Assembly (NCBI RefSeq): GCF_000375585.1
Contig: NZ_AQWP01000008.1
Location: 62,001-126,000, forward strand
Source: Sinorhizobium meliloti 4H41
GTDB taxonomy: Bacteria; Pseudomonadota; Alphaproteobacteria; Rhizobiales; Rhizobiaceae
DNA: 64,000 nt
Direction: 5' to 3'
Notes under the pieces: generated by a model
What the model saw: the letters and a program-made list of their open reading frames with translations, nothing else
What the model was told of the DNA's origin: nothing
Database searches by the model: none
Shown: positions 1 through 19,118 of the stretch, piece after piece
Position numbering within the stretch: position 1 is the first letter of the stretch
Layout of the letters: the number at the start of each line of letters is the position of its first letter
Translations under genes and position numbers: made by a program

Positions 1-1
1 C

Positions 2-421
2 CCGCGCGTCGGTGCCCTCGACGTCGTCGCCGAACCAGCGATCGCCAACGGCATGCCGGCGGAGGAGGCCAAGGCGGTCGCCAAAACCCTGCTGAAACGG
101 CTGCGCATCCCTGAGCGTCTCTGGTCCCTGGCGCCAGCCACCTTCTCCGGCGGCGAGCAGCAGCGCGTCAACATCGCCCGTGGCTTCATGGTCGACTATC
201 CGGTCCTGCTGCTCGACGAACCGACCGCCTCGCTCGACGCCGTTAATCGCGCGACCGTCGTTGGTCTGATCAACGAGGCGAAGGCTCGCGGCGCTGCCAT
301 CGTCGGCATCTTTCACGACGAGGAAGTGCGCGAATCCGCTGCTGACAGATTGTTCGGGATCGGCAGTCAGTCGGCCGCCATGGCACTACCGGCTGTTGCC
401 CTGACGGAGGCGTGCGCCTGA
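2..421 (+). CDS. phnL: Phosphonate C-P lyase ABC-type subunit PhnL (3' part)
   Basis: The open frame runs in from the left edge, so the N-terminus with the Walker A motif is missing. The visible part has the ABC signature ([14 protein letters not shown], near 150-185) and the Walker B/D-loop ([11 protein letters not shown], near 207-240), followed by the usual H-loop histidine (GIFHDE). PhnL is an ATPase-like subunit of the carbon-phosphorus lyase pathway for phosphonate use. The identification rests on the PhnL-like motif spacing plus the downstream DUF1045 and phnN genes. The stop codon overlaps the next start (TGATG), so translation is probably coupled. Confidence 0.88.
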
Positions 422-1137
422 TGCCGGAACCATCCACTCCTCGCTATGCCATCTACTACACACCGGCTCGGGAACATCCGTTGACCGGGGCGGCGAGTGC
501 ATGGCTTGGCCATGATCCGTTCGGCAGAACTGATGTAACCGGCGCCGCTCGATCGGAAGCAGACGCCCTTCTAACTTCTGAGCCGCGCCGATATGGTTTT
601 CACGCAACGCTCAAGGCGCCGTTCCGGTTGAGAGAAGGCGCATCGGTCGATGAGTTGGAATGGGCGCTCAGCAGCTTCGCTTCGTCGCGGCCACCTTGCC
701 CGATCGGATCATTGAAGATCGATCTTCTCGGCGGCTTCTTTGCGCTCGCTCCCGCCACTCCCATCCCGGCCTTGCGCGGTTTTGCTGCGCAGATTGTCGA
801 AGAGTTCGACCGGTTCCGGGCCCCGATGAATTCACCGGAACTGCAGCGGCGGCTGCAACGTCCGCTCGATGAAGTCGAGACCTCCCATCTCGTCCAATGG
901 GGCTACCCCTATGTCCTCGATCGATTTTCCTTTCATATGACGCTGACCGACCGAGTTCCGGAAGAGGGCCGCGCGCGAACGAGGGCGCGCTTGGAAAAGG
1001 TCTTCCAGCCGCACCTGTCCGAGGATTTCCGCATCGACACCCTGTCCCTGTTCGTTCAGGAGGACGGCGGGGGCAATTTCGTCGTTCGTTCGCAGTTCGC
1101 CTTGAAAGGCGAAGCGTTGCTTCAGACGGCGATCTGA
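421..1137 (+). CDS. DUF1045 phosphonate-metabolism protein
   Basis: A protein of about 238 residues that starts at the ATG overlapping the phnL stop; an in-frame GTG at 412 is a less likely start. It contains two short H-x-T/S-like motifs of the 2H phosphoesterase type (FHATLKAPFRL near residue 60 and FHMTLTDRV near residue 170). DUF1045 proteins regularly sit in phn operons and are thought to act as cyclic phosphodiesterases or accessory factors. The position between phnL and phnN supports the family call. The exact reaction is inferred. Confidence 0.85.
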   Translation: MPEPSTPRYAIYYTPAREHPLTGAASAWLGHDPFGRTDVTGAARSEADALLTSEPRRYGFHATLKAPFRLREGASVDELEWALSSFASSRPPCPIGSLKIDLLGGFFALAPATPIPALRGFAAQIVEEFDRFRAPMNSPELQRRLQRPLDEVETSHLVQWGYPYVLDRFSFHMTLTDRVPEEGRARTRARLEKVFQPHLSEDFRIDTLSLFVQEDGGGNFVVRSQFALKGEALLQTAI

Positions 1138-1142
1138 GGCCA

Positions 1143-1712
1143 ATGATGTCGCCCCGCGGAGCACTTGCCATTGTTGTGGGGCCAAGCGGTGCGGGCAAAG
1201 ACACGTTGATCGAATACGTGCGAAGCCGGCTCAAAGATGATCCTCGCGTTCGCTTCGTACGCCGGCTCATCAGTCGGCCAGTCGCGGTCGGGGAGGACCA
1301 TGAGGCGGTTGACTATGACGAGTTCCAGCGGCGGCTTCTCGCAGGCGCCTACGGGCTTCATTGGCAGGCGCATGGCCTCTGCTATGGCATTCCCTCGGAA
1401 ATCGATAAGTGGCTAGAGCAGGGCGATATCGTTGTGGCCAATGGCTCTCGCGCCGTCCTTTCGAAAGCCCGGCGGCAATACCCGCAACTGCTTGTCATCA
1501 ACGTCACCGCGCCAATAGACGTCTTGGCAAGGCGTCTGGTCGAACGGGGACGCGAAAATCTAGAAAGCATCAGGGGGCGTTTAATCCGAAGTGATGAATA
1601 TCTGGTCGATGGTGCTGACGTGGTGCATATCGACAACTCGGGTTCGGTGGAGGCGGCTGGGGAACGCCTTCTTGCCGCGTTTGTTGCACAGGTTGGGCGG
1701 GCGAAGCAATGA
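1143..1712 (+). CDS. phnN: Ribose 1,5-bisphosphate phosphokinase PhnN
   Basis: About 189 residues, guanylate-kinase-like. A P-loop GPSGAGKDT lies near residues 13-21. PhnN converts ribose 1,5-bisphosphate to PRPP, the last step that returns the sugar from C-P lyase catabolism. The start is the ATG at 1143, six bases after the DUF1045 stop; a second in-frame ATG follows at once. The frame is open further upstream, but that part overlaps the previous gene. Length and the phnL-DUF1045-phnN order match rhizobial phosphonate operons. Confidence 0.9.
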   Translation: MMSPRGALAIVVGPSGAGKDTLIEYVRSRLKDDPRVRFVRRLISRPVAVGEDHEAVDYDEFQRRLLAGAYGLHWQAHGLCYGIPSEIDKWLEQGDIVVANGSRAVLSKARRQYPQLLVINVTAPIDVLARRLVERGRENLESIRGRLIRSDEYLVDGADVVHIDNSGSVEAAGERLLAAFVAQVGRAKQ

Positions 1713-2069: not shown

Positions 2070-2735
2070 CTATCGGTCCTGTCGTGTCGCCGAATTCGGA
2101 ACCCCCAGATGAAGGCCCTTACGGTCCATTCGCGACCGGAGCCTTTCCCTAACGATGTGCCAATCGTCGCCCAGGCAGCTGGCGACAGCCAAGTCGCAAA
2201 TCTCGCCCGTGCTCAATCGGAATCGACTTCTGAGAACTCCTTCCTGCACGAAGCCAATCCGATCGAGAAACCCAAGCATCTTCACATTCTCGGTATGAAC
2301 AAAATATTCGCATCGATTGACCCTCAGATCTTCATAGAGATGTTTCAGCAGCAAAAAAGTCGCTTCCGCGTTTACGTTGGTGCCCCAGGCATGCGGCGAC
2401 AGCCAGGTGCTGCCAACCGTCACACGCCCTTCGTAGACATCTATATCCTTGAATCCGGATGCCCCGACAATTTTGCCGGCGCCAGCAGTCCTAACCGCAT
2501 AGACCCGCCGTTGCCTGTCCACCGTTTCTGCGATCATCCTGACGAACCAATCCCGAAATCCTAAAGCGGTTGCGCCATTCGTCCCGAGAAATTGCCAGAT
2601 TCTCTCATCGGCCGCGGCGCTGCGGAGCTCTTCCTCGTGGCCCTCATTCAGCGGCTCCAGGACGATGTTGTCACTCCGGATTGGTCTCGGAGCGCTTAGG
2701 AAGGGATCAGTCATTTCAAAGACCGCTGCTTTCAT
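2070..2735 (-). CDS. GNAT-family (RimJ/RimL-like) N-acetyltransferase
   Basis: 221 residues. The central block (WLSPHAWGTNVNAEA... near 110-125) corresponds to the acetyl-CoA-binding region of RimJ/RimL-like enzymes, and NVKMLGFLDRIGFVQEGVLR near 150-170 is the usual end of the fold. A strong ribosome site (GAGGAGG, 8 bases before ATG) fixes the start. It is the last gene of the minus-strand group led by the sigma-54 promoter at 6727, 162 bases after the asparagine synthase-like gene. The substrate is unknown. It may acetylate the amine made or carried by the operon product; that is inference. Confidence 0.85.
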   Translation of the reverse strand: MKAAVFEMTDPFLSAPRPIRSDNIVLEPLNEGHEEELRSAAADERIWQFLGTNGATALGFRDWFVRMIAETVDRQRRVYAVRTAGAGKIVGASGFKDIDVYEGRVTVGSTWLSPHAWGTNVNAEATFLLLKHLYEDLRVNRCEYFVHTENVKMLGFLDRIGFVQEGVLRSRFRLSTGEICDLAVASCLGDDWHIVRERLRSRMDRKGLHLGVPNSATRQDR

Positions 2736-2897
2736 TGCCTATCCTCCTCATCAGATTGGCCGGCGCGGACAGCGAAATGCGATTGGCGACCGAACGGGAA
2801 AGTCAGGCCGAACGGGCCTGCGAGAATCAGAATGGCGGCGAACGGCAACCCTTCGAGGGTTTGCAAGCCCTCTTTCCGACGGCACCGCGCAAAACCG

Positions 2898-4778
2898 TTA
2901 GTGCTGTCGCAGGAAGATTTCGAGATTGCTGATGAGCCAAAATTGCCTCCCAAATGCATCGGTCGCGCGAGCAGCCTTCGCGTCGTACCAGCGTCTAAGC
3001 GCCCCGACATCGATGAAGTCGGCGATAGCAGGGGTGCTCTTAAATAACAGGTCTCGAAAAGGACGCGATCCCTCGCCGGCTGCCCAGTTACCCAACGGCA
3101 ACGGAAAACCGAGCTTTTTGCGTGTGATGACGGACGACGGCAGCACTTGGGTGTAGGCGTCCCGCAACGGCACTTTTGAGACGTCCAAACGCTCGCTAAA
3201 CGAGCTGACCGGCGTTGTGAAAGCCTTTACCGCGGCCCACCTGCTGCGCCAGCGCAGACGCTCTGCGGGCCGCATCGATAGCGCCCGCTCGACGATCCGA
3301 TGATCGGTGAAGGGAACACGAGCCTCGACACCCGCTGCCATCGTCGTGTTGTCGACCATCTCCAGCAGGGCGGTCAAATGATGTTCAACGAAGAAGCGGG
3401 CTATGCGAGCGGCTGGACTGTCACCTGCCGAAAAGTATGTCTCTTTCATCCACCCGATCAGCGTCTCGTCATCGTTGATTGCATGGCTCCACGCCTTCTT
3501 GGCCAGCGATAGTTTTTCGTCAATCGGGAAATACGCGTACTGATTTAAGAACAGCTCGAATTCCGAGCACCGTTCGTTCGGCAGGCCGATATGTTGCCGT
3601 AATCTGCGGCCGAACCGGGCGGGAATCCACGCAAGCCCGCTGTCGCGCATCAAATCGAAGGGCAGTCGATAGATCCGACTGTATCCGGCAAAGAGTTCGT
3701 CAGCGCCTTCACCAGTTAGCACGACTTTGTAGTCCGCCCCGACACGTTGCGCGAGGAGGTGCATAGCCGTTTCATTGTGCATGCCAAGCGGATGACAACG
3801 GAGTGCAATAAGTCTCGTTACGGTATCAATGTCAGTCGTCGACTTCAGGGGAACGAGGCGGTGAGGTGCACCTATCGCTGCCGCGACTTCAGCGGCAAAC
3901 GGACTTTCGTCATAGCCCTCTCCTTCGACGACCCCCGTGAAACAAGTGGGTTTCACCGATGAGCGATTGGTGATCTCGTAAGCAACGATGCTGGAATCCA
4001 AGCCTCCAGACAGGAGCGCCGCCACCGGTGTGTCTGCGACGAGGTGTTCCTCAACAGCGGCGCCGATCATATGGCGAATACGGGCGTTTTCCACCTTGCC
4101 CGGTTTTGGCGACCACCATCGCTCGTGCAGCCGCTCGCCTCCCTGCAAGCGCATCCAAGTGCCGGGAGGCATCTTCTTGATGTTGCTAAACAGCGAACGC
4201 TCGCCAAAGACGGCGCGGAACGAAAGGAAGCTCGACACCCCGATCGGATCAATGGACGCATTGACACCGGGCCAACGAAGAATTGCTGAGGGCTGCGAAG
4301 CGAAAGCAAGGCCGGTCGGCGTATCAGCGTAGTAGAGAGGCTTTATTCCTAGACGATCGCGAACCAAGAATGTGGCTTGAGAGCGCGGATCATGGAGCGC
4401 AAAGGCGAACATCCCTCGAAACATGTGTAGGCAGTCGGGCCCCCACCTGGCGAAGGCCTTGCAGATCACCTCCGTATCGGACGCGGTGCGAAATATCGCT
4501 CCTTCCTTCTCTAGCCCGACGCGAAGTTCCCGGAAGTTGTAGATTTCGCCATTGTAGGTGACGACAATCCCGGTGTCCGCTTCAACGAACGGCTGATTGG
4601 AACGAGGGTCGAGATCGATAATCGAAAGCCGGCGATGGGCAAACCCAAAATTCCGGCCAATGTAGCAACCGGCGGCATCTGGTCCGCGATGGGCAATCTC
4701 TTCCGCGCAGCGCTCCAAAACGTCTCTCGAGAGGGAGGTATCACACGCATGGGCTATGAAACCAAAAATGCCGCACAA
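2898..4778 (-). CDS. asnB: Glutamine-hydrolysing asparagine synthase-like amidotransferase
   Basis: 626 residues with the full class II layout. The catalytic Cys follows the start directly (MCGIFGF), the glutaminase domain spans about 1-210, and the synthetase domain carries the PP-loop LLSGGLDSS near residue 257. Both halves look intact, so glutamine-dependent amidation of a carboxylate is expected. The start codon is TTG at 4778, five bases after AAGGAGG and required to place Cys at position 2. Paralogs of AsnB often serve natural-product or surface-polymer pathways. In this operon a specialised amidation is more likely than housekeeping asparagine synthesis (inferred). Confidence 0.9.
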   Translation of the reverse strand: MCGIFGFIAHACDTSLSRDVLERCAEEIAHRGPDAAGCYIGRNFGFAHRRLSIIDLDPRSNQPFVEADTGIVVTYNGEIYNFRELRVGLEKEGAIFRTASDTEVICKAFARWGPDCLHMFRGMFAFALHDPRSQATFLVRDRLGIKPLYYADTPTGLAFASQPSAILRWPGVNASIDPIGVSSFLSFRAVFGERSLFSNIKKMPPGTWMRLQGGERLHERWWSPKPGKVENARIRHMIGAAVEEHLVADTPVAALLSGGLDSSIVAYEITNRSSVKPTCFTGVVEGEGYDESPFAAEVAAAIGAPHRLVPLKSTTDIDTVTRLIALRCHPLGMHNETAMHLLAQRVGADYKVVLTGEGADELFAGYSRIYRLPFDLMRDSGLAWIPARFGRRLRQHIGLPNERCSEFELFLNQYAYFPIDEKLSLAKKAWSHAINDDETLIGWMKETYFSAGDSPAARIARFFVEHHLTALLEMVDNTTMAAGVEARVPFTDHRIVERALSMRPAERLRWRSRWAAVKAFTTPVSSFSERLDVSKVPLRDAYTQVLPSSVITRKKLGFPLPLGNWAAGEGSRPFRDLLFKSTPAIADFIDVGALRRWYDAKAARATDAFGRQFWLISNLEIFLRQH

Positions 4779-4829
4779 TGTAGCCTCCTTCCCGCAGTCC
4801 GAGCCTTTTTTCTAGGGGCGCCAGCATGG

Positions 4830-5765
4830 TTATCGCACGACGTCTGACAGGCTTTCCGTAGCCTTGGCCGCAATCATCTGTATGCAGCCGTCTCCAAACC
4901 AAAACCTGGCGAGCGGGTGGTCGTAGTGCAGATACATGGGAGCCAGAAACCGGCGAAGATTTTTGAAGCCTTTCGTGTATCTTGAGACCCGACGTACCGC
5001 CTCGAAACCGTTCTCGCGATACCAGTCACGCATTTGTTGTTCGGTAAAGGCGAACTCGTGATACGTCGGCGCCTGGAACCGATCGCGCAATGTGACGAAA
5101 AGATCGTCGTCGAAAAGGCTGCGCAGGAAGTTTTCCTCGCCATTCACCGAGGGGCGCTCATGTCCGCTCCTGATGGCGAAAATCCAGTCGAGAGCCTCTT
5201 GCGCCGTCCTACCGTCGAGATTGTCAACCGTTTGCCGGAACTGGGCATCCGAAGCGTACAGTTCGCGCAAATGATTGATGCAACGATATAGAACACCATT
5301 TCCGGTCCCCATGATCGTGAGGAAGAAGTGACCGCCGGCGCGCGTCACCCGCGCCAGTTCATCGAACCCTTGTCGCGGATCAGCCGTGTGAGGTAGAACA
5401 CCGGCGCAGTGCACAAAGTCAAAGCTGTTGTCATCAAATGGCAGATTGAGAACACTTCCACCGACAAGCGATGATCGAGCACCGAATTTCGATAATCGAC
5501 GCGCGGCGCAATCCATCCATTCCTCACCGAGCTCGAGCGAAATGACTTTTGCGGCGCCTTTTTCCAGAAACGCGTAGGATGCATTCGCGTTGGAGCCGCA
5601 GCCGGCATCGAGGATGTTCAGTCCACGAAAACCGCCTGGATCAAATCCGAAATACTCCTCATCGATCAACGACACTAACCGGCTAAAGATATGCTCATCC
5701 TCTTCCTGCTGTCGCTGATAGCGATCAAAGACTGCACGTGTTTCGACCTCGAATGCCGTATCCAT
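4830..5765 (-). CDS. Class I SAM-dependent methyltransferase
   Basis: 311 residues. Motif I is LNILDAGCGSNAN near residue 50, with an acidic end of strand 2 (VISLELG), FDFVHCAGVLPH (motif II/post-II) and a long C-terminal part that could bind the acceptor. A ribosome site AGGAGG sits 7 bases before the ATG. It lies between the CDP-alcohol phosphatidyltransferase and the asparagine synthase-like gene with short gaps, so co-transcription is likely. The substrate is unknown. Sequence does not show UbiE, PmtA or other named signatures clearly enough to specify. Confidence 0.85.
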   Translation of the reverse strand: MDTAFEVETRAVFDRYQRQQEEDEHIFSRLVSLIDEEYFGFDPGGFRGLNILDAGCGSNANASYAFLEKGAAKVISLELGEEWMDCAARRLSKFGARSSLVGGSVLNLPFDDNSFDFVHCAGVLPHTADPRQGFDELARVTRAGGHFFLTIMGTGNGVLYRCINHLRELYASDAQFRQTVDNLDGRTAQEALDWIFAIRSGHERPSVNGEENFLRSLFDDDLFVTLRDRFQAPTYHEFAFTEQQMRDWYRENGFEAVRRVSRYTKGFKNLRRFLAPMYLHYDHPLARFWFGDGCIQMIAAKATESLSDVVR

Positions 5766-5782
5766 TGCTTCTCCTCCTGACG

Positions 5783-6394
5783 TTACCTTCCCAGCCCGCC
5801 AGCAAGCAGTCCGATGGATCCCACTGCCGCGAGCGTCAGGTTTGTGAGCCGCAGTTTGTTGCCCGTGCCGGGAAACCTGAAGGTTGAGAGATGAAGGACC
5901 GAAAGCATAAACGCCGCCCCGATCAAGACAGTCCCAAGGCTTTGGATCGGGAAATAGCGGTTCGCAGCAAAGAGAAACGCCAAGACGAATAGATCGTTGT
6001 TGAGAGGCAGTCCTCTACCGAATCCATCGGCATCGAGCCCAATTGTTAAAAAATAGCTCAGCCGCAGCGCTCCGGATAGAACCAGACACACAGCAGCTAG
6101 AAACGCGGGAACTGAAAACGCGTTAAATGACAAAATCAAAATCGCAGGGAAAACCGCAGCGTAAATCAGATCAGCGAGTCCATCGAAGGCGCGCCCGAAT
6201 TGCGCCATCACGGCCGTGCGATTCGGCGAGCTTTTTGCAATCATGCCATCGGCGTCATCCGCTAAGAGCGCCCATAGTGCGAAACAAATGCCGGCATCGA
6301 AACGTTCGACAAGCACCAAGTAAATCGCGCTCATTGCAAATATCAGTCCAAGGGCGGTCACAGCATTTGCAGCATCGAAGAGATAGCGGATCAT
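5783..6394 (-). CDS. CDP-alcohol phosphatidyltransferase family membrane protein
   Basis: 203 residues with several hydrophobic helices. The family motif D-x2-D-G-x2-A...G-x3-D-x3-D is present (DDADGMIAK...GRAFDGLADLI, near residues 46-78). Such enzymes swap CMP of a CDP-activated lipid for an alcohol, as in phosphatidylserine, -glycerol or -inositol synthesis. One motif position is changed (usual Arg after Ala is Lys). The layout of six or so helices fits PssA/PgsA-like proteins, but the alcohol acceptor cannot be read from sequence. It has its own good ribosome site (AAGGA) and is second in the sigma-54 operon. Confidence 0.85.
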   Translation of the reverse strand: MIRYLFDAANAVTALGLIFAMSAIYLVLVERFDAGICFALWALLADDADGMIAKSSPNRTAVMAQFGRAFDGLADLIYAAVFPAILILSFNAFSVPAFLAAVCLVLSGALRLSYFLTIGLDADGFGRGLPLNNDLFVLAFLFAANRYFPIQSLGTVLIGAAFMLSVLHLSTFRFPGTGNKLRLTNLTLAAVGSIGLLAGGLGR

Positions 6395-6400
6395 TTTTCC

Positions 6401-6682
6401 TTACCTCGCCGCCGACAGCAGAGCTCCGGCTGCGTACTCTTTCGAGTCTCTTGAGCGGGAGGCCAAGCCGAATGAATTGCTCTGCGACGTAGAGGGCTTC
6501 TTGACTGCCGTTCTCGTGCCATTTGAGTTCTTCCCGGCGAGCTGCGGCGAGCGGCAGCCCGACGGTAGATGCGCGAGTCGTTTCTCAGTGTGGGCTCTGC
6601 TTATCGTTCGAAGCGTTGCGCCATCAAATCGCATGAGATCCATCACGTTGGCGTTCACTGAAAATGCCGTCAGCTTGCCCAT
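6401..6682 (-). CDS. Small protein of unknown function heading the sigma-54 operon
   Basis: 93 residues from the ATG at 6682, chosen because the strong GGAGGG site ends seven bases before it; the in-frame ATG at 6688 is too close to that site. The N-terminal 20 residues (GKLTAFSVNANVMDLMRFDG) are neutral to hydrophobic. The rest is basic and rich in Ser, Asn, Lys and Arg, without a clear signal peptide or helix. I do not recognise a family. The stop lies six bases before the CDP-alcohol phosphatidyltransferase start, and the promoter at 6727-6741 is 45 bases upstream, so it is almost surely the first gene of this operon. Confidence 0.6.
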   Translation of the reverse strand: MGKLTAFSVNANVMDLMRFDGATLRTISRAHTEKRLAHLPSGCRSPQLAGKNSNGTRTAVKKPSTSQSNSFGLASRSRDSKEYAAGALLSAAR

Positions 6683-6726
6683 TGTCATCCCTCCTTCAAC
6701 TCAAATGAATACATCAGGGACCATGT

Positions 6727-6741
6727 GCAAGTAGTGTGCCG
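6727..6741 (-). promoter_or_regulatory. Sigma-54 (-24/-12) promoter of the small-protein operon
   Basis: On the minus strand the bases read GGCACACTACTTGC, with the GG and GC pairs ten bases apart as sigma-54 requires. It lies 45 bases before the small-protein start. The TGT-N10-ACA site at 6835-6850 is about 95 bases upstream, a usual distance for NifA. Confidence 0.75.
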
Positions 6742-6755
6742 GATATATTGGGAAT

Positions 6756-6770
6756 GTATACGGCCTATAC
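6756..6770. repeat. Short inverted repeat GTATA-N5-TATAC
   Basis: GTATACGGCCTATAC is a perfect 5-base inverted repeat just upstream of the minus-strand -24 element. It could be a regulator-binding site, but no matching regulator is suggested by the neighbours. Confidence 0.35.
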
Positions 6771-6834
6771 TTGCTTCAGCAGTTCTCAAAAGAGTGTCTG
6801 CAAGCGTCAACTTTGGTCGGGACTCCTACATTGT

Positions 6835-6850
6835 TGTCCGCCTTCGGACA
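6835..6850. promoter_or_regulatory. NifA-type upstream activator site (TGT-N10-ACA), shared
   Basis: TGTCCGCCTTCGGACA matches the NifA site exactly. It sits between two divergent -24/-12 promoters, about 94 bases from the minus-strand one (6727-6741) and 123 bases from the plus-strand one (6973-6987), so one NifA site could serve both operons. The remaining intergenic DNA from 6689 to 7069 shows no gene. Confidence 0.75.
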
Positions 6851-6972: not shown

Positions 6973-6987
6973 TGGCATGGCACTTGC
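6973..6987 (+). promoter_or_regulatory. Sigma-54 promoter of the peroxiredoxin-rpoN2 operon
   Basis: TGGCATGGCACTTGC has the GG and GC pairs with ten bases between. It lies about 85 bases before the peroxiredoxin start. In Rhizobium etli the comparable prxS-rpoN2 pair is known to be sigma-54/NifA dependent. Confidence 0.85.
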
Positions 6988-7069
6988 ACGACCAGTATGT
7001 GGGCTAAGCGGATTAGCGTGAGCCTTACCTAAGCAGCAATGCGTCAGGTCTTCTTGTAGAGGAGCAATA

Positions 7070-7612
7070 TTGATGACCATCAGAAAGAAGGTCCCCTTCG
7101 TCACCTTTCGTACGCGTGTTCGCGATGAGTCTATCGCGGGGCCAAACCCATACCGGTGGGAGACCAAGACATCCGACGACTACTTCAAGGGCAAGCGGGT
7201 CATCCTGTTCTCGCTGCCGGGCGCGTTCACCCCAACCTGCTCCACCTACCAGCTGCCCGACTTCGAGGACCTCTACACCGAGTTCCGGAAGGAGCGCATC
7301 GACGAGATCTACTGTCTCTCCGTCAATGATGCATTCGTCATGAACGCCTGGAGCAGGGCCCAGGGGCTGAAGAACGTGAAGCTTATTCCCGACGGCTCGG
7401 GCGAATTCACCCGCAAGATGGGCATGCTGGTCGCCAAGGAGAATCTCGGATTCGGGATGCGCTCCTGGCGCTACGCAGCAATAATCAATAATGGCGTGGT
7501 GGAGCAGTGGTTCGAGGAGGAAGGCCTATCCGACAACTGCGATGCCGACCCCTATGGCGTCACGTCTCCACAAAATATTCTTGAAAGGCTAAAGGCCCCG
7601 GCCGCCGCATGA
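7070..7612 (+). CDS. prxS: Peroxiredoxin (Prx5/AhpE-like, symbiotic)
   Basis: 180 residues. The peroxidatic cysteine is in FSLPGAFTPTCSTYQ near residue 56, the hallmark of the Prx5 group (thiol-dependent reduction of hydrogen peroxide and organic peroxides). The start is the ATG at 7070 after GAGGAGCAATATTG. It directly precedes rpoN2 behind a sigma-54 promoter, as in R. etli, where PrxS helps protect bacteroids from peroxide. The protein should be cytoplasmic, with no signal peptide. Confidence 0.92.
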   Translation: MMTIRKKVPFVTFRTRVRDESIAGPNPYRWETKTSDDYFKGKRVILFSLPGAFTPTCSTYQLPDFEDLYTEFRKERIDEIYCLSVNDAFVMNAWSRAQGLKNVKLIPDGSGEFTRKMGMLVAKENLGFGMRSWRYAAIINNGVVEQWFEEEGLSDNCDADPYGVTSPQNILERLKAPAAA

Positions 7613-7689
7613 CCTAGAGGAGCAGCCACCGTTTCACAGCCACCATCACGCACGGCCCGGTGCGTCGCTCGACAGGAGTTTCGCTCTTC

Positions 7690-9144
7690 ATGGAGTCCTT
7701 TGTAGGCCTTCTTCAACGTCAGCAGCAATCGCTCGTGATGACGCCCCAACTCATCGCGTCGATACGCTTGCTGCAACTGGCGCATTGCGAACTGCATCAG
7801 TTCGTCGAGCAGGAAATAGAAAAGAACCCATTCCTGGAATTGGCGTCGAACGATAGCGCGACCTCTGCCGATCCATCGTCGTTCCCAGGGAAAGATCCAA
7901 GCATCTGCGCGCGCGCAAACAACGCAGATGGGCCGAGGTCCGAGAACTCGGAATTGCTCGGGCAATGGAAGTCGATCCGCGACACACCCAACAGCGCCTC
8001 CGGGGAAAGGCCTGACCCGGCGGAGTATGCCGCCTCAGCGGAAACATTGCAGGACCATGTCGCTCGTCAGGTCGCCCTTACTGCATTCACGCCACAGGAG
8101 CGGCTGATCGCTGGCGAGCTTGCCAGACATCTGGAAGACACTGGGTATATTCATGCAGACCTTTTGGAGCTTGCCCGGAGGCTGAGTGTCCAAGAGGCTG
8201 ATGTAGAACGGGTTCTCGGAACCTTGCAGCTCCTTGATCCACCGGGAATATTCGCTCGAACTCTCAGCGAATGCCTTGAGATACAGTTGCGCCAACGAGA
8301 TCGCTTCGACCCGGCCATGGCAGCGTTGATCGCCAATCTTGAGATGCTGGCACAACGCGACTTTCAGGCTTTGACGCGGCTTTGCGGGGTTGACGAAGAC
8401 GACCTCCTCGACATGTTGCATGAAGTCCGCATGCTCGATCCCAAGCCTGGAAACCGATACCAATCCGGAGGTCCGGACTATATCATACCCGACGTGTGGG
8501 TTCTGCCCTCGCCAGGAGGCGGATGGCAAATCGAGCTTAATCCCGACACTCTGCCAAAAGTGCTGATCAACCAAACCTATTTTGCCGAAGTCTCTCGCCT
8601 GACCGCAAACAATTCAGCAGATCAGGCATTCCTCAACGAATGCTTAGAAAACGCGAGCTGGCTGGCTCGCAGCCTCGATCAGCGCGCCAAAACGATCCTC
8701 AAGGTAGCAACTGAAATCGTCCGCCAGCAGGATGTGTTTCTGGAACATGGCATCGCCCATCTTCGGCCGCTCAACCTTAAGACCGTCGCTGAGGCGATCG
8801 ACATGCACGAGTCGACTGTAAGTCGGGTGACATCGAACAAGTACATGCTCACTCCGCGCGGCGTCTTCGAGCTAAAGTATTTTTTCACAGTCGCGATCGC
8901 CTCCACTCAAGGCGGGGATGCGCATTCCGCTGAAGCTGTCCGCCATCGCATCAAGGCGATCATCGCCCAAGAACCGGCCGATGAAGTGCTTTCCGACGAT
9001 GAAATCGTCGCCCGACTAAAGGAAACAGGCATCAGCATTGCGCGCCGCACCGTCACAAAGTATCGGGAGGCAATGAACATACCCTCCTCCGTGCAACGCC
9101 GCCGCGAAAATCGTGTACGGCTTCAATGGCGATCAAAGGCCTGA
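7690..9144 (+). CDS. rpoN2: RNA polymerase sigma-54 factor RpoN2
   Basis: 484 residues from the ATG at 7690, which gives the usual sigma-54 N-terminus (glutamine-rich activator-interacting region with LVMTPQLIASIRLLQ). A core-binding middle part and an HTH region (ESTVSRVTSNKYM near 375-390) follow. The RpoN box is ARRTVTKYREAMNIP near residues 455-470. An in-frame GTG at 7660 is possible but lacks family similarity. Rhizobia often carry a second, symbiotic rpoN next to prxS. It would direct transcription from the -24/-12 promoters in this window. The gene is convergent with nifQ. Confidence 0.95.
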   Translation: MESFVGLLQRQQQSLVMTPQLIASIRLLQLAHCELHQFVEQEIEKNPFLELASNDSATSADPSSFPGKDPSICARANNADGPRSENSELLGQWKSIRDTPNSASGERPDPAEYAASAETLQDHVARQVALTAFTPQERLIAGELARHLEDTGYIHADLLELARRLSVQEADVERVLGTLQLLDPPGIFARTLSECLEIQLRQRDRFDPAMAALIANLEMLAQRDFQALTRLCGVDEDDLLDMLHEVRMLDPKPGNRYQSGGPDYIIPDVWVLPSPGGGWQIELNPDTLPKVLINQTYFAEVSRLTANNSADQAFLNECLENASWLARSLDQRAKTILKVATEIVRQQDVFLEHGIAHLRPLNLKTVAEAIDMHESTVSRVTSNKYMLTPRGVFELKYFFTVAIASTQGGDAHSAEAVRHRIKAIIAQEPADEVLSDDEIVARLKETGISIARRTVTKYREAMNIPSSVQRRRENRVRLQWRSKA

Positions 9145-10201: not shown

Positions 10202-10216
10202 TGGTACAATCCTTGC
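10202..10216 (+). promoter_or_regulatory. Sigma-54 promoter of the proteasome-like gene
   Basis: TGGTACAATCCTTGC keeps GG and GC with ten bases between; only one base of the -24 core (C to T) differs from consensus. The gene start is about 100 bases downstream. Confidence 0.7.
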
Positions 10217-17810: not shown

Positions 17811-19118
17811 ATGAGCGAGGAAAAGTTCGACGCCATAGTTATCGGGGCCGGTATGGCCGGCAACGCGGCCGCTTACACCATGGCGAGCCGCGGCCTCAAG
17901 GTGCTGCAGCTTGAGCGCGGCGAATACCCGGGTTCCAAGAATGTCCAGGGCGCCATCATGTACTCGAACATGCTGGAGAAAATCATCCCGGACTTTCGGG
18001 ATGATGCGCCATTGGAGCGGCATCTGATCGAGCAGCGGTTCTGGATGATGGACGACACATCCCACATCGGGATGCAGTACCGGTCGGATGACTTCAACGA
18101 GACAAGACACAACCGCTATACGGTCATTCGCGCCCAGTTCGACAAGTGGTTTTCGCGCAAGGTGCGCGAGGCGGGAGCGACGGTTCTTTGCGAGACGACG
18201 GTGACGGAACTCGCCCGCGACAGCGACGGAAAGGTGATCGGCGTTCTTACCGACCGCACGGGCGACATGATCCTTGCGGACGTGGTCGTTCTCGCAGAAG
18301 GGGTCAATGGGCTTCTCGGCACGCGGGCTGGCCTGCGTGAAACACCAAAGCCTCAAAACGTGGCGCTCGCTGTAAAGGAGATGCATTTCTTGCCCGAAGA
18401 GGTGATCGACCAGCGGTTTGGCCTGAAGGCAAACGAAGGCTGCGTGATCGAGGCAGCCGGCACCATTTCCCGCAGCATGGCCGGGCTCGCCTTCCTCTAT
18501 ACCAACAAAGAGTCGATCTCGATCGGCATCGGCTGCCTTGTATCTGACTTTGCCGCGACAATGGAGAGTCCTTATGCGCTGCTCGAAAGCTTCAAGAAAC
18601 ATTCGTCCATCCAGCCGCTGATCGCGGGGTCAGAGGTCAAGGAATATGCCGCTCACCTCATTCCCGAGGGTGGGTACAAGGCCATCCCGCAGCTCTTCGG
18701 CAGCGGCTGGGTGGTCGTAGGCGACGCAGCTCAGCTCAACAATGCGGTGCACCGCGAGGGATCCAACCTCGCCATGACGTCGGGGCGCCTCGCCGGTGAG
18801 GCTATCTTCCTGGTCAAGAAAGGCGGGCGGCCAATGACGAAGGAAAACCTCGCCCTCTACAAGTCAATGCTGGACAAGTCCTTCGTCATCAAAGACATGA
18901 GGAAATACAAGGATATGCCTGCCCTTCTTCACACGAATTCCCGGAACTTCTTCACGACTTACCCGCAGTTGCTGTCGCAGGCAGCACAGACTTTCATGCG
19001 TGTCGACAGCACCCCGAAGCTCGACAAGGAACGGGCAACCACGGCCGCCTTCATCAAGGCTCGTTCGCGGTGGGGGCTCGTCAGTGACGCGGTCCGCTTG
19101 GCACTCGCCTGGCGCTGA
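17811..19118 (+). CDS. fixC: FAD-dependent quinone oxidoreductase FixC
   Basis: 435 residues. The dinucleotide-binding motif [19 protein letters not shown] lies at residues 11-29, and [11 protein letters not shown] (second FAD contact) near residue 300. It is related to ETF-quinone oxidoreductase and takes electrons from FixAB toward the quinone pool, with FixX as the iron-sulfur partner. It follows fixB by 12 bases, and fixX follows by 11. Confidence 0.95.

Follow-up and report, generated by a model that had tools for sequence, protein, structure and literature searches.

A NifA-type operon of Sinorhizobium meliloti 4H41 lies at one end of a predicted phosphonate island that may run an opine-like loop

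What does a set of tailoring genes behind a NifA/sigma-54-type promoter make, and who uses the product? The genes in question lie on the minus strand of a 64,000-nucleotide stretch of S. meliloti 4H41, C8:62001-126000 (C8 being contig NZ_AQWP01000008.1), hereafter the window, and face the genes prx and rpoN2 across a common NifA-type site. A first-pass annotation had described a NifA/RpoN-controlled operon that might yield a modified phospholipid or a small signal. By gene content, this operon forms the end of a phosphonate island of 25 kb, and we assign a probability of roughly 55% to the reading that this island, located on the symbiotic plasmid and controlled by NifA and sigma-54, runs a phosphonate rhizopine (opine-like) loop.

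The gene families of the island and their linkage can be read directly from the sequence. A phosphoenolpyruvate (PEP) mutase is encoded on the same contig at C8:43954-44871 (337.9 bits, cut-off 319.55), and its EDKRFPKMNS stretch fits the PEP mutase motif EDKxxxxxNS. It is followed, in this order, by an aspartate-type aminotransferase, a phosphocholine-type cytidylyltransferase, a second methyltransferase and a five-gene ATP-binding cassette (ABC) importer, and then by a PF01663 phosphodiesterase, PhnF (180.9 bits, cut-off 156.8), phnGHIJKML, a DUF1045 gene and phnN, of which the last reach into positions 1-1712 of the window:

1 to 421, plus strand: 3' part of phnL, from a carbon-phosphorus (C-P) lyase operon that starts upstream of the window
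421 to 1137, plus strand: DUF1045 phosphonate operon protein (TIGR03223, 273 bits, cut-off 248.95)
1143 to 1712, plus strand: phnN, ribose 1,5-bisphosphokinase (TIGR02322, 232.2 bits, cut-off 156)

The operon follows the phn genes in the opposite orientation, and prx-rpoN2 comes next. Synthesis and catabolism-type genes are thus closely linked on the symbiotic plasmid, with nifH on the same contig (C8:10771-11595). Given these upstream genes, from the mutase through to C-P lyase, the likely product is a phosphonate, possibly a phosphonoalanine ester, rather than an ordinary phospholipid; phosphonate biosynthesis by the island is well supported by these genes. The modified phospholipid proposed at first pass is therefore a weaker reading. 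The genes that mark the pathway as a phosphonate one, together with the adjoining AccA-like importer and most of the C-P lyase set, lie outside the window and were missed by the first-pass annotation.

A natural comparison is offered by the symbiotic plasmid of S. fredii GR64, which is 99.6% identical over 20 kb and on which no PEP mutase was found. It keeps the NifA-type site in place and the -24/-12 box of the operon, and of the island's genes it retains just a damaged small open reading frame (ORF) and about 150 bases of the first enzyme gene. Because a plasmid near-identical over 20 kb lacks the mutase, we regard the island as an accessory trait. On the side of prx that the island occupies in the window, GR64 carries a ThiF / Mov34 / multiubiquitin gene group (L010:3227-7857).

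The features of the operon and of its divergent partner are as follows.

2070 to 2735, minus strand: GNAT acetyltransferase (Acetyltransf_3), non-core, 162 bp after AsnB
2898 to 4778, minus strand: AsnB-type class II glutamine amidotransferase, TTG start (TIGR01536, 375 bits, cut-off 267.1)
4830 to 5765, minus strand: S-adenosylmethionine-dependent methyltransferase (MT; Methyltransf_11)
5783 to 6394, minus strand: membrane protein of the cytidine diphosphate (CDP)-alcohol phosphotransferase family (PT), motif DxxDGxxA..Gx3Dx3D
6401 to 6682, minus strand: frameshifted remnant of a 110-amino-acid protein, by alignment with R. gallicum and GR64
6726 to 6741, minus strand: -24/-12 (sigma-54) promoter of the biosynthetic operon, CGGCACACTACTTGCA, score 15.4 of 16.9, 109 bp from the activator site
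6835 to 6850, no strand assigned: NifA-type upstream activator sequence (UAS) TGT-N10-ACA, TGTCCGCCTTCGGACA, common to the two divergent promoters
6973 to 6988, plus strand: -24/-12 promoter of prx-rpoN2, TGGCATGGCACTTGCA, score 15.9 of 16.9, 138 bp from the UAS
7070 to 7612, plus strand: peroxiredoxin gene prx (Redoxin), divergent partner of the operon
7660 to 9144, plus strand: rpoN2 (sigma-54), an ORF with sigma-54-annotated homologues 81% and 85% identical (L009, L016)

The four enzyme ORFs belong to the families named in the first-pass annotation, and its picture of a co-directional tailoring operon downstream of a NifA/sigma-54-type promoter, with one UAS in common with prx-rpoN2, agrees with our pattern searches. 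In the 98 kb of C8:28001-126000 (window included) we found nine pairs of UAS and -24/-12 box, 60-200 bp apart, at eight promoters, where 40 dinucleotide shuffles gave an expectation of 0.05. Apart from the pairs at the two divergent promoters, five lie inside the window on the plus strand, at 10202, 15751, 19099, 21495 and 50324. The operon ORFs, counted from the small leading one, are separated by successive gaps of 6, 17, 51 and 162 bp. Neither sigma-70 patterns (4 against 2.4 expected) nor terminator patterns (6 against 6.3) were in excess between 1700 and 7200.

The protein said to head the operon, a 93-amino-acid product of unknown family, turned out to be a remnant. Compared with the intact 110-amino-acid version of Rhizobium gallicum, which matched no NCBIfam model, the small ORF shows a 39-nt gap and a 7-nt deletion, and the deletion places its two halves in different frames. 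The GR64 copy carries both gaps as in the window.

From the families encoded in the island we infer the reactions, the product, its export and its catabolism. The PEP mutase would make phosphonopyruvate, which the aspartate-type aminotransferase would convert to phosphonoalanine; the gene next to that of the mutase encodes a protein similar to aspartate aminotransferases (AAT family). This step has a reported parallel in PnaA, an aspartate-aminotransferase-like enzyme that converts phosphonopyruvate to phosphonoalanine (PMC11867202). Next, the cytidylyltransferase would activate phosphonoalanine to the cytidine monophosphate (CMP)-phosphonate, CMP-phosphonoalanine. It matches LicC and the NF041135 model, as well as structure 6pd1, presumably PntC, over residues 6-246, almost its full length; PntC-type nucleotidyl activation of phosphonates is the subject of PMC6697681. 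PT may then transfer the phosphonate to an alcohol or sugar to form an ester, and MT and the AsnB-type amidotransferase, perhaps with GNAT in this strain, would complete the product by methylation and amidation. AsnB has the expected motifs (Cys2, SGGLDS, YNGEIYN). We rejected its assignment as the N-acetylglutaminylglutamine (NAGGN) amidotransferase (TIGR03104, 341 bits, cut-off 570.1) and as an exosortase-type amidotransferase, whose model it matched far under the cut-off.

A route through 2-aminoethylphosphonate (AEP) was likewise rejected. Across the 17 records or genomes compared below, eight of them plasmid records only, no phosphonopyruvate decarboxylase scored over the cut-off; two weak partial matches (G683, G684) lie off the cluster contigs. 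Other clusters contain a CobD-like enzyme of the pyridoxal phosphate (PLP) type (TIGR01140, 174.6 bits, under the cut-off of 290.55) that might decarboxylate; none was found on C8:28001-126000.

We then asked how far the gene set is conserved in 17 loci chosen through AsnB or MT similarity: our own, eight plasmid records with the top AsnB matches and eight from a genome scan for MT. In 16 of them MT is the gene immediately after PT, and AsnB comes right after MT, or one gene later (S. numidicum), in 15. R. gallicum IE4872 keeps the entire block; in S. mexicanum a further MT copy, accompanied by AsnB, adjoins the PT-MT pair, and in S. meliloti AK83 the place of MT is taken by a formyltransferase. 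Among eight PTs aligned to that of the window, six are 70-77% identical, that of R. gallicum 92% and that of AK83 35%. All seven MT homologues aligned (Rhizobium, Sinorhizobium, Mesorhizobium) are 70-95% identical; AsnB is 90% identical in R. gallicum and 49-59% in the other seven aligned. Within the stretches fetched, GNAT was matched only in the window and R. gallicum (2/17) and therefore falls outside the conserved core. Conservation as a set on other symbiotic plasmids, which the first-pass annotation had named as support, thus holds for PT, MT and AsnB and not for GNAT.

Each of the 16 other holders has one PEP mutase over the cut-off, and 15 of these have nifH, the exception being the 70-kb AK83 plasmid record. 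Counting our own, 16 genomes or records combine the mutase with nifH; the two genes are no more than 35 kb apart in 11, far apart in three and on different contigs in two. In the plasmid collection, each of the nine records with MT also has the mutase. The mutase alone is more widespread (84 plasmid records, 14 of them Agrobacterium). A general tie between PEP mutase and nif was rejected: among 397 genomes of the order, 15 have the mutase and 65 nifH over the cut-off, and two have both. The EDKxxxxxNS motif is present in the mutase of our strain and in four others of the seven checked, and absent in two Mesorhizobium sequences.

Several further arrangements were seen. On an accessory plasmid of S. 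meliloti M270 the same cassette adjoins a mutase. Plasmid pAt2 of Agrobacterium tumefaciens combines a core of mutase, aminotransferase, cytidylyltransferase and CDP-alcohol transferase with other tailoring genes, annotated as ornithine cyclodeaminase, alanine racemase and cysteine synthase, and its cluster probably makes another phosphonate product. R. leguminosarum Tp73_4 has a distant AsnB (34%) in a different phosphonate cluster, which also encodes a cytidylyltransferase alongside aepX and aepY. Of the aminotransferase, R. jaguaris has only a fragment between mutase and cytidylyltransferase (L055:11161-13038), and its PT-MT-AsnB part lies about 170 kb off on the plasmid. On our contig, a cytochrome P450 gene (C8:36847-38447) is associated with a -24/-12 box and two NifA-type sites; R. 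gallicum IE4872, S. mexicanum and S. terangae likewise have a P450/ferredoxin/NTF2/SDR/LLM set next to the mutase.

The importer suggests what kind of molecule is taken up. For its binding protein (C8:50696-52207), the closest solved structure is AccA, which binds agrocinopine opines (304.5 bits, against 128.6 for the next protein), and AccA was also the best match of a second type of cluster binding protein that is 30% identical to the first (Mesorhizobium 131-3-5; 263.3 against 86.5). The contacts of AccA with the phosphate of its ligand are reported as N54, Y375, Y376 and S419 (PMC4526662). All four are kept in each of the seven full-length cluster proteins, three of the first type and four of the second; an eighth, partial protein shows N54 only. 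By comparison, one of the 11 other paralogues in our genome, 35% identical to AccA, has the four; for two of these 11 the alignment reached 14% identity at most, so that their rows mean little. The pyranose contacts Y145, M372, E434 and E510 are not kept and read L/F, H/V, T/I and Y/P in the cluster proteins. Since the phosphate contacts are kept and the pyranose contacts changed, these proteins probably bind a phospho- or phosphono-ester whose sugar or alcohol is not that of the AccA ligand. An importer whose binding protein is matched by our own adjoins the cluster in 16 of the 17 loci, and the phosphodiesterases that accompany the two types of importer share 45% identity (own against R. jaguaris). 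Elsewhere in our genome, at C23:1613-6244, lies another AccA-like ABC importer, with a binding protein 35% identical to AccA and the four phosphate contacts kept.

Breakdown of the C-P bond is encoded beside the cluster in five loci, namely our own, R. gallicum, S. mexicanum, S. fredii 83666 and M. loti CJ3sym. PhnJ is present somewhere in all eight genomes reached through the genome collection; none was found in the other five plasmid records. Bacteroid lists in PMC3973600 contain phnN and phnG, which, as far as that source shows, are not those of the window cluster.

Is the set used in nodules, as the promoter implied? Expression data from a relative support this. In Mesorhizobium loti R7A, lacZ fusions in nodules gave 827 units for pepM in the wild type and 7.7 in a nifA2 mutant, 2456 and 16.2 for aatA, and 862 and 22.0 for asnB, while all three stayed under 20 units in broth; mutants of the three genes fixed nitrogen normally, and the genes are dispensable (PMC3538637). 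No link of these genes to phosphonates was found in the open-access literature searched. Upstream of the mutase, TGTCGGAAGCCCGACA lies 81-82 bp before CGGCACGCGCCTTGCT in M. loti CJ3sym, Mesorhizobium 131-3-5 and L-8-3. If the R7A island equals that of CJ3sym, direct NifA control of the R7A mutase is possible because of this pair of UAS and -24/-12 box. Such pairs also precede PT in S. mexicanum and the cluster PLP gene in S. numidicum. Outside the 17 loci, a related cluster on the accessory plasmid pMLa of M. japonicum has pairs upstream of both aepX and asnB (L060, 8733/8753-8822 and 18309-18390), in an arrangement unlike that of the window and placed independently:

L060:8733-9004 and 18309-18872: NifA-type regions of M. 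japonicum pMLa, each with UAS and -24/-12 pairs

In the stretches fetched, no pair was found at R. jaguaris aepX, S. meliloti M270, R. gallicum M101 or A. tumefaciens pAt2, and S. terangae showed one weak pair 0.7 kb before aepX, within a neighbouring gene. TGTATN6ATACA as an operator common to aepX genes was rejected, being exact in one of 12 upstream stretches, our own.

Based on these observations, we propose that nodule bacteria make the phosphonate when nitrogen fixation is on and that free-living kin outside the nodule would take it up by way of the AccA-like importer; the phosphodiesterase would hydrolyse the ester and C-P lyase, under PhnF, would break the C-P bond. We infer the opine role from the island's rhizopine anatomy together with its opine-family binding protein, and the full effectiveness of the M. 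loti mutants is as expected of an opine. A wider version of the proposal falls just short of an even chance: a nodule-made phosphonoalanine ester may carry carbon, nitrogen and phosphorus out in a form usable only by kin with the AccA-like importer, phosphodiesterase and C-P lyase, the recurrence of one core with varying tailoring genes on rhizobial and Agrobacterium plasmids may reflect a family of compounds, and agrocinopine uptake and rhizopines may be two ends of one opine lineage.

The most serious competitor, if an unlikely one, holds that the product is a phosphonate antimetabolite or signal and that importer, phosphodiesterase and C-P lyase serve scavenging or self-protection. Many phosphonates are bioactive, as several abstracts open by saying, and the core occurs with other tailoring genes on pAt2. 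AccA, moreover, is reported to carry the antibiotic agrocin 84 as well (PMC4526662). However, an importer and a full C-P lyase set in the producer fit consumption better, and no dedicated exporter or resistance gene was noticed in the annotations, in which no search aimed at these was made. The lack of an overt symbiotic phenotype in the M. loti mutants (PMC3538637) is neutral here.

Less probable again is a bacteroid phosphonolipid or surface phosphonate, close to the lipid idea of the first-pass annotation, in which PT would transfer the CMP-phosphonate onto diacylglycerol. The best matches of PT, all under the cut-off, are archaetidylserine and phosphatidylserine synthase (pssA) models, and among solved structures it weakly matches phosphatidylinositol (PI)-phosphate synthases (E 0.063). 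The CDP-alcohol phosphotransferase motif DxxDGxxAR..Gx3Dx3D is present in all eight PTs checked, with R replaced by K or N in seven; PF01066 matches the AK83 homologue and leaves the window PT unmatched at E 0.001. The predicted PT structure (mean pLDDT 47) was too poor for use in a fold search. A prediction cited in PMC6697681 also assigns most phosphonate clusters to surface glycans and lipids. Against a lipid product speak the importer, which adjoins the cluster in nearly every locus and in both tested types matches AccA, a binder of soluble phosphodiesters, and the fact that cytidylyltransferase-PT pairs also make soluble phosphodiesters, consistent with the NF041135 match of the cytidylyltransferase.

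That the island is a store or salvage route for nitrogen and phosphorus inside the bacteroid, with no exchange between cells, would agree with synthesis and breakdown genes in one block and is very improbable, as a dedicated AccA-like importer would be pointless for a purely internal store. Equally improbable is a set of NifA-induced housekeeping duplicates (asparagine synthase, methyltransferase, lipid enzyme) with no tie beyond their position. The AsnB score over the general asparagine synthase cut-off would suit this reading; the PT-MT adjacency in 16 of 17 loci and the presence of a PEP mutase in each of the 17 holders, our own among them, speak against it.

Several observations nevertheless weigh against the phosphonate rhizopine loop. 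As to the enzymes, AsnB passes the TIGR01536 model for glutamine-hydrolysing asparagine synthase (375 against 267.1 bits), and the mutase of M. loti CJ3sym reads EDTxxxxxNS instead of EDKxxxxxNS, with DK absent from four sister loci as well. As to distribution, MT is rare (two of 297 genomes of the family, own included), and the core occurs on the AK83 plasmid without nifH on the record and on the M270 and pAt2 plasmids, which have no shown nodule link. A nodule-only function is therefore too strong a claim, and such relatives make a general role possible. As to uptake and breakdown, no related binding protein was found in the stretch fetched from S. numidicum, and no co-located C-P lyase in 12 of the 17 loci. 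As to regulation, a pair of UAS and -24/-12 box lies upstream of a cluster gene in only six of the 17; in four Mesorhizobium/Aminobacter loci the -24/-12 box is kept and the UAS differs at its final base, and the operon-side promoter of R. gallicum no longer has its -24 GG. Upstream of our own aepX we found a UAS-like palindrome and no -24/-12 box, so that NifA control of this half of the island is unsupported by pattern. Sullivan et al. (2013) considered direct activation of pepM and asnB by NifA "highly unlikely" (PMC3538637).

To our knowledge, the rhizopine idea, that nodule bacteria feed free-living kin, has so far been based on one compound class. If the phosphonate loop exists, it would add a second class, one that contains phosphorus and whose genes for synthesis and consumption form a conserved island near nif genes, allow kin selection to be tested in several model strains, explain why M. 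loti genes that depend strongly on NifA2 are yet dispensable, and represent a new source of phosphonates in soil.

How does the island compare with known systems? Rhizopines are made in nodules under NifA, and the genes for making and for degrading them lie close together on the Sym plasmid (PMC6668481). The mos/moc genes of S. meliloti L5-30, for 3-O-methyl-scyllo-inosamine, resemble the island in this linkage and in being an accessory, strain-specific set; the compound there is an inosamine, whereas the island encodes PEP mutase, cytidylyltransferase and C-P lyase and would make and degrade a phosphonate. Agrocinopine uptake by AccA-AccF of Ti plasmids is similar in its binding protein (36% identical, all four phosphate contacts kept) and in the ester hydrolase gene adjoining the importer. 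It differs in that the pyranose contacts are changed in the island, the island's hydrolase is of the PF01663 type and synthesis would be bacterial, not by the transformed plant.

On the biosynthetic side, the phosphonoalamide cluster pnaABCD (PMC11867202) shares the PEP mutase and an aspartate-type aminotransferase without decarboxylase, a likeness of enzyme type; the island has cytidylyl activation and alcohol phosphotransfer where pnaABCD uses ATP-grasp peptide ligation. PntC-type activation (PMC6697681) likewise has a cytidylyltransferase beside the mutase; no decarboxylase was found for the island, and the main text of that paper does not contain "CDP-alcohol", "rhizob", "methyltransferase" or "asparagine synth". 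A further counterpart is msi323-msi327 of M. loti R7A (pepM, aatA, asnB), with a homologous cluster in CJ3sym and published NifA2-dependent nodule expression (PMC3538637). These were described there as metabolic genes without a NifA promoter, whereas CJ3sym has the UAS and -24/-12 pair before its mutase.

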